Assembly (NCBI GenBank): GCA_026389335.1 | Contig: JAPLIB010000012.1 | Coordinates: forward strand, 1-64,000 | Source: Cyanobacteriota bacterium | GTDB taxonomy: Bacteria; Cyanobacteriota; Cyanobacteriia; PCC-6307; Cyanobiaceae | Direction: 5' to 3' | Length of the DNA: 64,000 nucleotides | Shown: positions 46,135 to 53,800 of the stretch, piece by piece | How the letters are laid out: each line of letters starts with the position of its first letter | Position numbering within the stretch: position 1 is the first letter of the stretch | Notes under the pieces: model-generated | Databases searched by the model: none | Seen by the model: the letters and a program-made list of their open reading frames with translations, nothing else | What the model was told of the DNA's origin: nothing | Translations under genes and position numbers: made by a program

Positions 46135-48002
<1,868 letters not shown>

Positions 48003-48095: not shown

Positions 48096-49946
48096 TCACG
48101 CCAGGCCTTCAACCCCTGATCGGAGGTGGGCGCTCCCAAGACCTGCACAAAAACTCTGCCATTGGGAAGCCTGCCGGATCGGCAAGCTTCCCCAGAGCTC
48201 GATCTGCTGCAGCCCCTGGGCCACCGGCAGACCGGAGAGTAGGAATTCCCGCCAATCCAGCAAAAAAAGCAGGCCCAGCAGGCTGCGATTCATCAGCGGT
48301 TGCCGCGGGTGGCTATAGGGAATCACCGTCCATTGACAGCTGAGAGTCTCCACATCCACAAGGCTGGCCAGCCGACGGGGGAAGGCCAGGGCGTAGCCGG
48401 GCGACGCCTCCAATGCCTGCTCAATCCAAGACCGGCTGGGCCAATCAGCCTCAGCGACACAGATCACCACCCGCAAGGGGATATGGCAGATCTGCTCCGG
48501 CGGCAACAAGCGATCCACCAATGTGGCGCCCCAGCGGGGGTTCAGGGTCTGGATCGCATTGAGTTCAATCAACATGGTGCCTCCCAGCTGCAGAGGCCTG
48601 GTGATATCGGTACTGATGATATCCACGCCAACATTCGAGATTCCCAGTGTTTCCGCAATCGCCACAGCCATCTGGACCAGACTGGGATGGACGCGATCCA
48701 GCCACTCACTGTAAACCCAATTCGAACGATTCTCCAGATCAGCACTAAGCACCACCCTCGTGCCAACCGGCAAGACGCCCTCAGGGACAAAGCCCTGACT
48801 CGCAATTAGCCCCAAGACAGCATCATTCAATTCAACAGGCCTTGAAATATATTCTTCAGCTCCATCAAGCAGTCGCAGGCTATTAGCCTGATCCAACAAT
48901 TGAGCCACCGTTCCACTCCCATCCCCAATCAAGAATGGCGGCTCAAGCCGCAAGACTCGCACCAGCTGGCTGGCGATCACAACCATCCGATGGTAGGCAC
49001 CCTCAACGTGCTGCTCCACCAAAAGCTCGGAATCCGTGTGCGCCTTTGCCCGCAGCAAAGCCTGCTGGAGCCCCTCCAAATTCGTGATGCCAATGGTGAC
49101 TCCTCGCCCCTGCTCAGCATCACAAGGCTTGACGACGCAGGGATAGCCAATGCTCTTGACAGTGGACTGAATAAGAACCTGACTTGATGACAATGGAAGC
49201 CGACACTGGCGTGGAACCGGGAAACCCAGCCTAGAAAGGACTTGATTAGTATAAGCTTTCTGCCGACAGATATGAGCAGCAAAAAAAGAATCAGAATCGC
49301 AGGCAGTTGAACAAACCAAACGAGAGAAATGTCCCGTACCAAGCTGCAGAATCGGCCACTCAGTCACTCCCGCAGCCAACTGCCATACCGCCAAGTCTCG
49401 CTGATGGGCATAACTGACCACGGCATTGGTCAGGGCGTGACGGCTCAGATAGCCGGCCAGGCGAGCAAGCTTCTGCACTTCGGCAGCCAAATGAGCCCGG
49501 ATCAACGCAGAGGCGTCGTCACGAATCTCCAGCGTCCAAACCAATATCCGCACCGCCAACTGCAGAGAGGTGCCCACCAGATCATGGTGAGGCCCTCGCA
49601 ACAGGTGGCTTTCAATATCGGGCCGAAAAGCAGAAGGAACAACACAAGAGTCCAGCTGGACGGGAGCGATCAACCGCTCGGTTAGCTGTGCACATAACAG
49701 GGAAAGGCTCACCTCATATCCACCCTCACCATTGGCGATAGCAGGCTCAAACTTCGCAAGATCCAGCTCTGGGAAGAGCTCGTCCAGTCGCTTGACGAGC
49801 CCTGAACAAGGCAGCAAAGGCAAGGCGATGCCAGCGGGACCCTGCACCACAAGATCAACTAACCAGCCAGGCCCCATACCTGAAAGCGAAGGCCCATGAA
49901 GCTCGCGCACCTGGCGATAAGCCCAGGTGCATAAAGGCAATACCAC
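48096..49946 (-). CDS. Cyanophycin-synthetase-like ATP-grasp protein without Mur-ligase domain
   Basis: A 616-residue protein. Residues 12-200 resemble the N-domain of CphA (VRELHGPS, IANGEGGYEVS). The ATP-grasp fold at about 200-485 follows CphA order: LQLGTG at 200-205, KAYTNQVLSRLGFPVPR, VVKPCDAEQGRGVTIGI at 271-287, LLVEQHVEGAYHRMVVI and GVDIIS...LIELNA with E461/N463 as metal ligands. CphA adds Asp and Arg to cyanophycin and continues with a Mur-ligase half of about 390 residues; here a 130-residue tail without a GTNGKTT loop replaces it. It may ligate amino acids or short peptides; substrate unknown. Codon use is more AT-tolerant than its neighbours. Confidence 0.8.
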   Translation of the reverse strand: MVLPLCTWAYRQVRELHGPSLSGMGPGWLVDLVVQGPAGIALPLLPCSGLVKRLDELFPELDLAKFEPAIANGEGGYEVSLSLLCAQLTERLIAPVQLDSCVVPSAFRPDIESHLLRGPHHDLVGTSLQLAVRILVWTLEIRDDASALIRAHLAAEVQKLARLAGYLSRHALTNAVVSYAHQRDLAVWQLAAGVTEWPILQLGTGHFSRLVCSTACDSDSFFAAHICRQKAYTNQVLSRLGFPVPRQCRLPLSSSQVLIQSTVKSIGYPCVVKPCDAEQGRGVTIGITNLEGLQQALLRAKAHTDSELLVEQHVEGAYHRMVVIASQLVRVLRLEPPFLIGDGSGTVAQLLDQANSLRLLDGAEEYISRPVELNDAVLGLIASQGFVPEGVLPVGTRVVLSADLENRSNWVYSEWLDRVHPSLVQMAVAIAETLGISNVGVDIISTDITRPLQLGGTMLIELNAIQTLNPRWGATLVDRLLPPEQICHIPLRVVICVAEADWPSRSWIEQALEASPGYALAFPRRLASLVDVETLSCQWTVIPYSHPRQPLMNRSLLGLLFLLDWREFLLSGLPVAQGLQQIELWGSLPIRQASQWQSFCAGLGSAHLRSGVEGLA

Positions 49947-50263
49947 CAGATCAAAAGCACAGGAACAAGTCGTTCATGCCGAAAGCAGTCTCGTTCACCA
50001 ACGCAAACGCCACTTCGGCACTTCATAAACCTCCAATCTCTCCAGCCAAGCTCCTAGCCTACTGACCGGGTCACCCCGACCTTGAGGGCGGAGTTAGCAA
50101 CGCTGGCACATGTCCTGAGCCTCAGCGCAAGATCACGCAATCCACTCAGAATGCAGACGAATACTCTCAACCAAGAAAATGCACATTGCGAGAGTGCAAT
50201 GTGCCTTAAATCCTGACAATCAAGAATTCAGAGCCAAGAATATTCCGCCCAGATTCACTGACC
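49947..50263. other. AT-richer intergenic region upstream of the ATP-grasp gene
   Basis: About 317 bp. No gene supported. A short palindromic GGGTCACCCCGACC-like element lies near 50069-50083. The ATP-grasp promoter is expected here, or it may be read through from the small ORF upstream. Confidence 0.45.
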
Positions 50264-50464
50264 CTACAACAGGCTCGGGCCATTCCAGGCGATGCTCACC
50301 TGGTCCTCGATTTTTGCGCCAAGCTCTTCAAGGCTAAGCAGGCAGGAACCAGAGACCTCCTCAACGGCGTGCAGAGCAGGAATCGGGACGAAGCTGGCAA
50401 AATCAGGGCCGCCGGCTTGCTTTACTACCGGAGAGAGTACAGCTTGCATTTCTAAAACCAGCAC
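50264..50464 (-). CDS. Small ORF of 66 residues, unknown function
   Basis: GTG 50464 (or ATG 50449, 61 residues) to TAG 50264. The sequence has an MQAVLSPVVKQAGGPDFASF N-terminal part, a single Cys, an acidic SLEELGAKIED segment and a short hydrophobic end. No family recognised. It is coded with plausible codon use, lies on the same strand as the ATP-grasp gene 317 bp downstream and next to a GT1 pseudogene. It could be an independent small protein, a peptide substrate of the ATP-grasp enzyme, or chance. Confidence 0.45.
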   Translation of the reverse strand: MLVLEMQAVLSPVVKQAGGPDFASFVPIPALHAVEEVSGSCLLSLEELGAKIEDQVSIAWNGPSLL

Positions 50465-50500
50465 AAAACAAATCTATTTGAAACCGAAAACCAAGATTTG

Positions 50501-51593
50501 TCAACAGACTTTTTGCAGATGTTTAACGGCCAGGTCAATGCCTTGGAGAGCGGCCGCGTAGGTGGTGGCCGGCAGAATCGCCCCGGCGGCAGGCGGCTGG
50601 CACAGCAGGGCGGCAACCTGCTCGGGATCGAAACGATGGGGAGGGACGGCCCAGCCCAGGCCCTGCTCCAGCGCCAGCCGAGCATTGAGGAACTGGTCAT
50701 TGCCGAAAGGTTCGATCACCAGCTGACATCCACCATCATTGGCGGCGGCCAAAGTTCCCATCCCGCCATGGATGAAGGCCATACACAGCGCTGGAGGGAT
50801 CCAACTCGCGGAAGGCCCAACCCTTCACCAGGATCAAGGATTGGCCCAGCAGTTCAGCCACCCGCAGATGATTCTCCAGCACCAGAACTGGATCCACCAG
50901 CGGTTGACTGCTGAAAGCCAGCCCAAGCGGCGTCCGGTGGTAGTCAGTATTGCCAAAGAGGATCTTCGAAGCACCAGAAACCGGTTCGGATCCAGTCGAG
51001 CTGGGGATAGTCGGCAGGCACGAATTTCTCAGGCACCGCGTGGAGGCGCAGCAACGGCGGTAGATCGTCGCGGTCGTCGCGGCTGCCCAGCAGCTGCTGC
51101 CGCAACGCTGCATCCAGCTGATCCAGCCCCACCGCCCAGGGATGGGGCTCCCTGCGGGAAGCCTTCAGGCGCTCGTAATCAATCATGGAACCGCTGTTGA
51201 GCCCCACCTCCACCCAGCGGCAGCCGCTCACCCGGGCGACCAGAGACAGCAGCGGCAGGTTGCGGGTACCGATCAGCACGTCCTCCGACCTGAGAAGCGC
51301 CAGCAGAGAGAGGATCTGGGCCGTGATGCGCTGGCGATATAGCGCTCATTCCAGACCACCAGCTCAGGCGGCTGCAGCCAATGATCCCAATGGGATGGTC
51401 TGGTGGCGGCCTCCCCCGGTCCCACCTTCTCCCCAAAGGGGATCACCTTGAGCGCAGCCCGACTGGCCAGCGCCTGCATGGCGGGATTACAGGCAAGCCG
51501 CACATCAAAGCCTTGGCGCTGCAGGGCACAACCAAGGCCCATCAGGGGCAGATGATCGCCGAGAGGGCATGGGGTGGCCGGCAGCGCGGTCAT
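50501..51593 (-). pseudogene. GT1-type (MGT/UGT-like) glycosyltransferase with several frameshifts
   Basis: Four overlapping frames together read as one GT1 protein. N-terminus: GDHLPLMGLGCALQRQGFDVRLACNP. Middle: SRDDRDDLPPLLRLHAVPEKFVPADYP, then LGLAFSSQPLVDP and LILVKGWAF. C-terminus: FIHGGMGTLAAANDGG and EPFGNDQFLNARLALEQGLGW, the UDP-sugar-binding HGG...NDQ region. At least three frame changes occur, near 51275, 50950-51100 and 50740-50790. Intact members have about 400 residues. Multiple lesions favour true decay rather than a single sequencing error. Confidence 0.8.
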
Positions 51594-52123: not shown

Positions 52124-53800
52124 TCACTCCCCCTTGATCCCCGGCATCTGATCCAGGCGACCATCGCGCTTGAGGCGGCCCTGGGACTTCATCCAGCCCA
52201 GTCCCACCGGCAGAGCCAGCAGCAGGGGCACGGCGGTGAGGGCCGGACGATTGCTGGCCGCCAGCAGGGAGGCGGCCACCGCCAGGCCCCCCAGCAGAAA
52301 GGATTGGCCAGCCGCCTGCTGGGCCAGGGCCAGGCGCCGCAGCAGGCGATCGGTTTCCCCCGCGCGGATCTGCACCTGCAGATCCCCCTGCTCTATGCGC
52401 GCCAGGCTTTCATCCAACCGGCGCGGAATCCCCAGGGCGCGGCTGCCCACCTCGGCCGCCTGGCGCGAAATTTCATTGAACAGATCGTTGGGGCCGTTAC
52501 CGCTGGCGGTCATAAGGGGCAGCAGGTAAGGGCGGGCGATCGCCATCAGGCTAAAGCCGGGATCAAGGCTGCGGCCCACCCCTTCAAAAGTGGAGAGCGC
52601 CCGCATCACAAAAATCAGCTCGGGCGGCAGCCGAAAGGGCTGGCCGTACACCAAGTCGTAAAGATCAGACGAGAGCTTGCCCAACACATTGGCGCTGAAC
52701 GGGGGGGTGAGGGCCTCATTGAGCATCAGCCGCACCAGGCGGCGCACCGGGCCGGTTTCAATGTCGGTGGCGATCACACCGGCCTGCTGCAACTCTTCCA
52801 CCAGCGCAGCGGCATCCCGGCTGGCCGCCGCCCGCACCATGCGACCGATGCGGCTGCGCAGGCGCTCGGAAATCTGCCCCATCATGCCGAAGTCGTAATA
52901 GATGAGGGCCCCATCGGCGGCCACGGCGAGATTGCCGGGATGGGGATCGGCGTGGAAGAAGCCGAAACGCACCAACTGCTGCAGATAACTGGCAGCGCCC
53001 TTTTCAGCCACCGCCGAGGGATTGATTCCCGCCGCCAGCAGGGCCGCCCGATCGGTGATCTTGATGCCCGGGAGGTAGTCGAGGCACAGCACCCGCCGGG
53101 AGCTGAGCTCCCAGATCACGGCCGGAATGCGGATGCCGTTGTCGTCGAGAAACTGCTGGCGGAAGCGGGCGGCATGTTCGGCTTCCAGGCGGAAATCCAG
53201 CTCCCGCAGCAACACCCTGCGGCACTCCTTGGCGATGCCCACCCAGTCGCGGCCCTGGCCCCAGCGGGGATGGCGCTGAATCGCCGCCGCCACCTGCTGC
53301 AGCACCTCCAGATCCAGGCGGAACAGGCGCTCTAGGCCAGGGCGCTGCACCTTGAACACCACCTGGCGGCCGCTGCGCAAGCTGGCGCGATGCACCTGGG
53401 CCAGGCTGGCCGAACCCAGGGGCAGGGCTTCGAGATCGATGATCTCAGCGCAACGATCGCCGAGCTCAGCCTCCAGGATCGCCTGCACCACGGCGAAGGG
53501 GAAGGCTGGCACCTGGTCCTGCAGATGGGCCAGCTCCTCGACCACATCGGCCGGCAACACATCGGGCCGGGCCGAGAGCAACTGGCCCAGCTTGATGAAG
53601 GCCGAACCCAGCGCCAGGAATTCAGCCGTCAGCCAACGGGCGGTGCGGCGCTGACGCTCAGCGCGCTTTTCTGAGCTGTAGCCACCGGCATAACTCCAGC
53701 GGCGGCCATCCCACCACAGCCCCAGCATCAGCCGCAGGGCCAGCCGCCAGATCCGCAGAGACCGACTCAGACGCACCAACCAGGAGGACGAGGCGATCAA
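52124..53800 (-). CDS. ABC1/ADCK (UbiB-like) atypical kinase
   Basis: A 558-residue protein of the UbiB/ABC1 family. FIKLGQLLSARPDVLP carries the family KxGQ motif; LEALPLGSASLAQVHRA is the Ala-rich nucleotide loop; VVFKVQRPG the catalytic Lys; RFGFFHADPHPGN the catalytic region and DFGMMG the metal-binding motif. Two C-terminal membrane helices follow (about 500-540). These proteins support quinone/plastoquinone metabolism in membranes. TTG 53800 overlaps the upstream stop (TTGA), so it is coupled to the small gene at 53797. Confidence 0.92.
   Translation of the reverse strand: MIASSSWLVRLSRSLRIWRLALRLMLGLWWDGRRWSYAGGYSSEKRAERQRRTARWLTAEFLALGSAFIKLGQLLSARPDVLPADVVEELAHLQDQVPAFPFAVVQAILEAELGDRCAEIIDLEALPLGSASLAQVHRASLRSGRQVVFKVQRPGLERLFRLDLEVLQQVAAAIQRHPRWGQGRDWVGIAKECRRVLLRELDFRLEAEHAARFRQQFLDDNGIRIPAVIWELSSRRVLCLDYLPGIKITDRAALLAAGINPSAVAEKGAASYLQQLVRFGFFHADPHPGNLAVAADGALIYYDFGMMGQISERLRSRIGRMVRAAASRDAAALVEELQQAGVIATDIETGPVRRLVRLMLNEALTPPFSANVLGKLSSDLYDLVYGQPFRLPPELIFVMRALSTFEGVGRSLDPGFSLMAIARPYLLPLMTASGNGPNDLFNEISRQAAEVGSRALGIPRRLDESLARIEQGDLQVQIRAGETDRLLRRLALAQQAAGQSFLLGGLAVAASLLAASNRPALTAVPLLLALPVGLGWMKSQGRLKRDGRLDQMPGIKGE

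Follow-up and report, generated by a model that had tools for sequence, protein, structure and literature searches.

A predicted CphA-derived ATP-grasp amide ligase with a truncated Mur core in cyanobacteria

Introduction

Cyanophycin synthetases are the closest described systems for the protein considered here. In an excerpt of PMC9427784, R323, N394, and R458 of CphA1 are described as contacting the incoming aspartate, with alanine mutants that are impaired. CphA2, which still makes cyanophycin, is said there to have neither the P-loop nor the M-domain lid module. CphA2 acts on dipeptides released by cyanophycinase, as stated in an excerpt of PMC10206079.

The window analyzed here is a 64,000-nucleotide stretch (positions 1 to 64,000 of contig JAPLIB010000012.1) from a cyanobacterium of the family Cyanobiaceae. 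Its minus strand carries an open frame of 616 codons (48096..49946) for a short CphA-like protein. From the sequence alone, the original prediction held that this protein follows the domain order of cyanophycin synthetase, that an unrelated tail replaces the Mur-ligase half, and that a different ligation should follow from the missing half. Sequence comparisons point to a combination of three features, namely a CphA2-like plan, a putatively altered amine site, and biosynthetic neighborhoods around the relatives of the gene. A search of open-license PMC papers, judged by their titles and the openings of their abstracts, found none on this family of short forms.

Results

The reading frame and its conservation

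The frame at 48096-49946 contains no stop codon over its 616 codons. An orthologue with 70% identity occurs in G017, a genome of the same genus, where it occupies the same gap between the enolase and ABC1-type kinase genes. The flanks whose ends are common to the two loci lie in the window at 46710..48002 (plus strand), which we take to be the enolase gene, and at 52124..53800 (minus strand), presumably that of the ABC1-type kinase. The start codon is probably TTG at 49940, which stands opposite the orthologue's ATG in the alignment, rather than GTG at 49946. Comparison of the two orthologues gave a dN/dS of 0.24-0.28 for the whole gene and 0.24-0.26 after codon 490, so the tail is also under purifying selection; the ratio averages the whole split between the window and G017, and a recent loss of function would not show in it. 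These values indicate that the frame is kept open by selection rather than by chance. The gene lies in an AT-rich patch (48500..50500) recognized from GC and GC3: the gene has 57.0% GC and a GC3 of 61.3%, compared to 63.8% GC for the window and a GC3 of 82-86% for four other window genes. Among 10 short-form genes listed together with the GC of their locus, GC was at least 5 points under that of the locus in 8, with G102 and G160 as the exceptions.

Family assignment and domain order

The best NCBIfam models were those of cyanophycin synthetase, PRK14016 (7.3e-55, residues 151-464) and TIGR02068 (2.7e-50), and both matches fell far under their curated cut-offs; the TIGR02068 score was 171.2 bits against a cut-off of 850. 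A canonical CphA1 from G110, used as a positive control, scored 1041 bits with TIGR02068. The best solved structures by sequence were CphA1 (4.7e-33) and then CphA2 (7ta5; 9.2e-24), and Pfam returned six partial ATP-grasp matches, two just over and four under their cut-offs. With CphA as the best-matching family and CphA1 and then CphA2 as the best structures, the predicted CphA domain order was borne out. The N-domain region (residues 1-150, limit approximate; 49497..49946, minus strand) was delimited by sequence and structure alignment, and the ATP-grasp (G) domain, which spans approximately residues 151-485 (48492..49496, minus strand), by matches to solved structures and by alignment. Inspection by eye of residues 1-150 did not find the HxxEH peptidase motif. 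Compared to CphA1, the window protein thus has the same domain order and the same ATP, Mg, and acyl-phosphate residues, but it lacks HxxEH, the P-loop, and the lid module, and its aspartate site is replaced.

Two other ATP-grasp ligases are more distant. N-acetylglutaminylglutamine synthetase (TIGR03103) makes a small dipeptide and has a related ATP-grasp core, but the window protein scored 102.3 bits against that model's cut-off of 569, and we know of no Mur remnant in that enzyme. The ATP-grasp module of the glutathione synthetase GshF/GshAB has a common fold with the window protein (3ln6; Z 21.3, 302 residues aligned), but its sequence scores were under those of CphA and no glutamate-cysteine ligase part was seen in the window protein.

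An AlphaFold2 model was built with the CphA1 rows of the alignment cut before the M domain, and a second model included the M segment. Residues 38-580 of the first model aligned with residues 30-613 of CphA1 (7wae_C; Z 24.3, rmsd 7.7, 476 residues), and residues 5-582 with residues 6-579 of CphA2 (7ta5; Z 22.0, rmsd 6.4, 505 residues). The latter alignment supports the N domain, with low model confidence in residues 1-50.

The tail as a remnant of the Mur core

The tail comprises residues 486-616 (48096..48491, minus strand). The Mur P-loop GTNGKT and a full M domain with its lid are absent from the window protein, and the tail had been regarded as unrelated to the Mur half. This was not borne out. 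When the tails of 20 short forms were compared using hhalign with an M-domain profile from 35 CphA1 proteins, they matched over 108 columns (probability 94%, P 9.8e-8), corresponding to columns 21-128 of the 463 in the M domain. The match scored 56.0, whereas the best of 200 column shuffles gave 21.6 and a reversed profile 13.2. An origin of the tail unrelated to the Mur half was ruled out by this comparison and, on the profile evidence, the tail is a degenerate, truncated early Mur-ligase core with neither P-loop nor lid module.

Smaller sets of tails gave less. The nine tails of the window group (group A) matched those of the other 11 short forms (96%, P 1e-8; 0 of 200 shuffles) and matched the CphA1 M domain directly over 49 columns only (54%, P 1.3e-4; 0 of 200 shuffles); with four or five tails alone, hhalign aligned only the linker. 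Because hhalign with group A alone did not find the M domain in the long CphA forms (0.3%), and all short tails together matched CphA2 tails weakly (33%, P 4.5e-4), the window tail is tied to the Mur core mainly through intermediate relatives. The structure models add little here. Ten-residue means of pLDDT in the tail were 29-77, and the two models agreed there only on a strand at 491-496, a helix at approximately 505-513, and a strand at 558-564 with the helix that follows it. Since tail confidence was low in both, the models agree with the profile result and indicate nothing beyond it. Of the two checks proposed for the tail, it was therefore the profile comparison that provided Mur-core homology, with which the predicted structure is consistent.

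A related loss was noted elsewhere. The 636-residue CphA1-like protein of L112 (Akkermansiaceae; L112:9368-11278) matches PRK14016 with 491 bits through position 567, and its end is recognizable by eye as a CphA1 segment without the P-loop, so that it bridges the short-form tails and the Mur core visibly. The rest of its early Mur core is readable, in what looks like an independent loss of the Mur site.

The window protein and CphA2 therefore share one plan: both have an N domain, an ATP-grasp domain, and a Mur core that stops short of the lid and has no P-loop, and both have a single active site. CphA2 proteins seen in this analysis have 629-666 residues, similar to the 616 of the window protein. 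Because CphA2 has this plan and still makes cyanophycin, the substrate cannot be told from the missing Mur half, and that part of the reasoning behind the predicted change of ligation fell away. The similar size, the same truncation, and the Z score against 7ta5 would suit an ordinary CphA2 that re-polymerizes β-Asp-Arg. The residues of the remaining site, the supply of dipeptide, and the partner genes of the relatives carry more weight.

Residues of the remaining active site

CphA1 residues named in the excerpt of PMC9427784 were mapped by alignment, together with S396, G398, and N452, which were chosen additionally by the analyst. Counts were made over 61 aligned proteins (27 CphA1, 8 CphA2, 7 long forms, and 19 short forms). 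L053 and L054, which have no tail and were first labeled CphA2, were left out of these counts, of the CphA2 tails, and of the G-domain tree. K220, K261, R309, D431, E450, and N452 of CphA1 are conserved in all 61 proteins, and correspond to K230, K273, R320, D442, E461, and N463 of the window protein. E461 and N463 thus align with CphA1 E450 and N452, which upholds their assignment as metal ligands in CphA order.

The aspartate-contacting positions are different. The window protein has L334, E405, and R407 at CphA1 R323, N394, and S396, and the G017 orthologue is identical there, whereas the three CphA1 residues are kept in 27/27 CphA1, 8/8 CphA2, and 7/7 long forms. N469 and T467 stand at R458 and G456; R458 is present in all 27 CphA1 proteins, and CphA2 has F, L, or Y at that position. 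Q279 at H267 is not diagnostic, as the canonical CphA1 of G110, whose gene adjoins that of a cyanophycinase, also has Q. With the ATP, Mg, and acyl-phosphate residues kept and R323, N394, and R458 replaced, the predicted site should still activate a carboxylate but take an amine other than aspartate. Within group A, R323, N394, and S396 are kept in the four (of nine) proteins encoded beside a methyltransferase gene, and different members therefore probably use different substrates.

Distribution and phylogeny

When 400 genomes of the window's family were searched with a profile (E 1e-20), 16 gave matches, this one included, representing 13 of 251 good genomes and 10 of 59 genera; as no more than three candidates were scored per genome, the gene total is a minimum. 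In 14 of these genomes, again including this one, the matches were assigned as short forms. Of the other two, G110 has the canonical CphA1 and the match in G100 belongs to no subgroup. The short-form family is thus patchily distributed in this cyanobacterial family. In a search of 386 genomes of the phylum, no match outside the window's family came near the scores of the window group. A few of these matches reach into the tail and may be additional short forms, for example G448:C1:204525-205718 (in a frame of 616 residues) and G460:C2:2103-3497 (in a frame of 733 residues). Among the 80 relatives listed out of 200, 75 frames have the P-loop pattern; the other five comprise the short L112 and L126 (607 residues), the longer L118 (749 residues), and L059 and L134, which look like wrong frames.

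Quick trees, which contain long branches, separated the window group, the other short forms, the long forms (seven rows, with the P-loop kept), CphA2, and CphA1. The nine rows of the window group were grouped with an SH-aLRT support of 100 among 61 whole proteins and 99 among 47 G domains. S_G223, which like the G100 match belongs to no subgroup, joined L053 and L054 on long branches in the whole-protein tree and was left out of the G-domain tree and the topology tests. In the G-domain tree a branch with support 92 had the 20 short forms used on one side; a topology uniting them with CphA2 was not rejected (p 0.482), so the Mur site could possibly have been lost once. A single clade of the window group and CphA2 was likewise not rejected (AU p 0.232), although the two are separate in the best trees. 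The phylogeny proposed earlier as a check therefore supported a distinct window group and did not establish its separation from CphA2.

No cyanophycinase was detected in the genome of the window, which is 99% complete, or in the 13 other genomes with short forms (G017 is 64% and G028 85% complete). Among the 16 genomes it was found only in G110 (C2), beside the canonical CphA1 (L171:9059-11656); 14 of the 15 other genomes were thus negative, and three of these are 62-85% complete. With none found, there is no evident supply of β-Asp-Arg for a CphA2 role. The tree alone is compatible with a true CphA2, and the unrejected single clade speaks for it, but R323, N394, and S396 are retained in every CphA2 and lost in the window protein. 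Together with the missing cyanophycinase, these residues disfavor a β-Asp-Arg polymerase, which we consider very improbable.

Partner genes of the subgroups

Gene neighborhoods were surveyed as the original prediction had suggested, and in most subgroups partner genes follow the subgroup. Group C has a P450, a TauD-type dioxygenase, and a small protein at 5/5 loci (C43 of the window's own genome, G028, G017, G101, and G199); in G017 only a fragment of the short form is present, close to the end of its contig, and it was placed in the group by its neighbors and tail rather than by the tree. The small protein has 164-180 residues where delimited, and the two copies scanned had no Pfam match. Two of these loci, L008 (C43) and L039 (G028:C93), are clusters of a long CphA form, TauD, P450, a 164-residue protein, and a short form. 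The G015 locus also carries a distant P450 (25%).

Group D has a GT1-type glycosyltransferase and a phosphodiesterase-like gene (a weak Pfam match) at 3/3 loci. At all three cyanobacterial group-B loci without a fusion, one of which has a split ligase gene, there is an HExxH β-hydroxylase-type protein (TIGR04267; 109.8 bits, cut-off 40). The HExxH gene occurs in 4 of the 16 genomes searched and, in three of the four, its sole copy adjoins the group-B gene; G223 is the exception. The split gene is the short CphA-like gene of L009 (C152 of the window's own genome), which is broken by a frame change and adjoins the only HExxH gene of that genome. Intact counterparts of the pair occur in G015 and G101, where the ligase gene overlaps the HExxH gene tail to tail. 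Group B also includes a fusion of 1114 residues (L041:4630-7974, G017:C455), in which an adenylate-forming domain (TIGR01733, 1.1e-55; PRK06187, 8.4e-59; both under their cut-offs) is joined to a short CphA-like protein. No partner of this kind was seen by eye for L126 from Novosphingobium.

Group A, that of the window, gave the weakest pattern. One methyltransferase family is present at 4/9 loci, overlapping the ligase gene or 33 bases from it at three, and an EryCIII-like glycosyltransferase is present at two, as an intact gene in G017 and a broken one in the window. No partner was recognized by eye at the other three (G102, G310, and G147). The survey thus found subgroup-specific partners, least clearly in the window's own group. 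Two further arrangements were observed. In G199, a PGA_cap (CapA-like) protein (L163:15086-16156, C69) directly follows a long CphA form in a cluster with methyltransferases and a DUF3326 protein. In G223, a stand-alone Mur ligase with PF08245 and PF02875 (L176:5109-6548, C54) lies near an outlying short CphA-like gene, an arrangement that looks like the two halves of CphA as separate genes.

The locus in the window and in G017

An intact EryCIII-like glycosyltransferase of 394 residues is encoded beside the G017 orthologue (L043:4689-5873). Its counterpart in the window is a remnant in several frames (50504..51593, minus strand). The G017 gap holds three glycosyltransferase genes in all, and the other two are absent from the gap in the window. 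These genes bear on a second reading, in which the ligase would couple an amine or an amino acid to a glycan carboxylate at the cell surface, such as that of a uronic acid, and the glycosyltransferases would form part of the pathway instead of tailoring its product. The three G017 genes fit this reading, as do the GT1-type glycosyltransferase and weak phosphodiesterase match of group D and the PGA_cap protein beside a long form in one cluster. The P450, TauD, methyltransferase, and HExxH partners found elsewhere fit small molecules better, however, and the gap in the window has neither of the two additional G017 glycosyltransferases; a role in glycan modification is considered unlikely.

Disruption is not confined to this gap. 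Frames are also disrupted at two other CphA-family loci of the window's genome, in the long form and the TauD gene at C43 and in the short form at C152, but not at C149. With the broken glycosyltransferase, these disruptions suggest that the pathway may be decaying in this genome and its product altered or lost, with assembly error as another possible cause. They also favor a reading of the window gene itself as a decaying or inactive remnant. The 616 stop-free codons, the retained ATP and Mg residues, and the low dN/dS of both gene and tail, an average over the whole split from G017, count against this, and we regard a remnant as rather improbable.

Discussion

Collectively, these results lead us to favor, with moderate confidence, a CphA-derived single-site ATP-grasp amide ligase that would make a small tailored amide or peptide. 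The predicted "different ligation" survives on other grounds than those first given, namely the replaced aspartate residues, the absence of a detected cyanophycinase, and the partner genes of the relatives. From the kept residues, the protein would use ATP-Mg to phosphorylate a carboxylate, as in the G domain of cyanophycin synthetase, and an amine would then attack the acyl phosphate to form an amide. The second, Mur-type site appears from profile comparison to be gone, with its core staying on as a truncated scaffold. The replaced residues and missing cyanophycinase suggest that the amine is probably neither aspartate nor β-Asp-Arg. Most subgroups carry their own tailoring partners, which makes a small tailored amide or peptide the probable product. 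In the window's subgroup it is probably glycosylated, judging from the intact glycosyltransferase beside the G017 orthologue; with that gene broken here, this genome may make a changed product or none.

More tentatively, small cyanobacteria could harbor a natural-product system of CphA-derived single-site ligases that make small amides or peptides without a ribosome or a peptide synthetase. Several of its loci would have a long CphA-like partner and one an adenylation-domain fusion, and tailoring modules (methyl, glycosyl, β-hydroxyl, and P450 oxidation) would be swapped by subgroup. There is also a possible annotation trap, since the short forms match "cyanophycin synthetase" models best, under their cut-offs, in genomes with no detected cyanophycinase. 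If the proposal is correct, the fold of a cyanophycin enzyme would have been turned from a storage-polymer machine into small-molecule amide ligases, by a route in which one site was lost and the amine pocket of the other was reshaped. It would also point to new metabolites in small cyanobacteria, and the P450 plus TauD, HExxH, and methyltransferase gene sets would offer a means of finding them.
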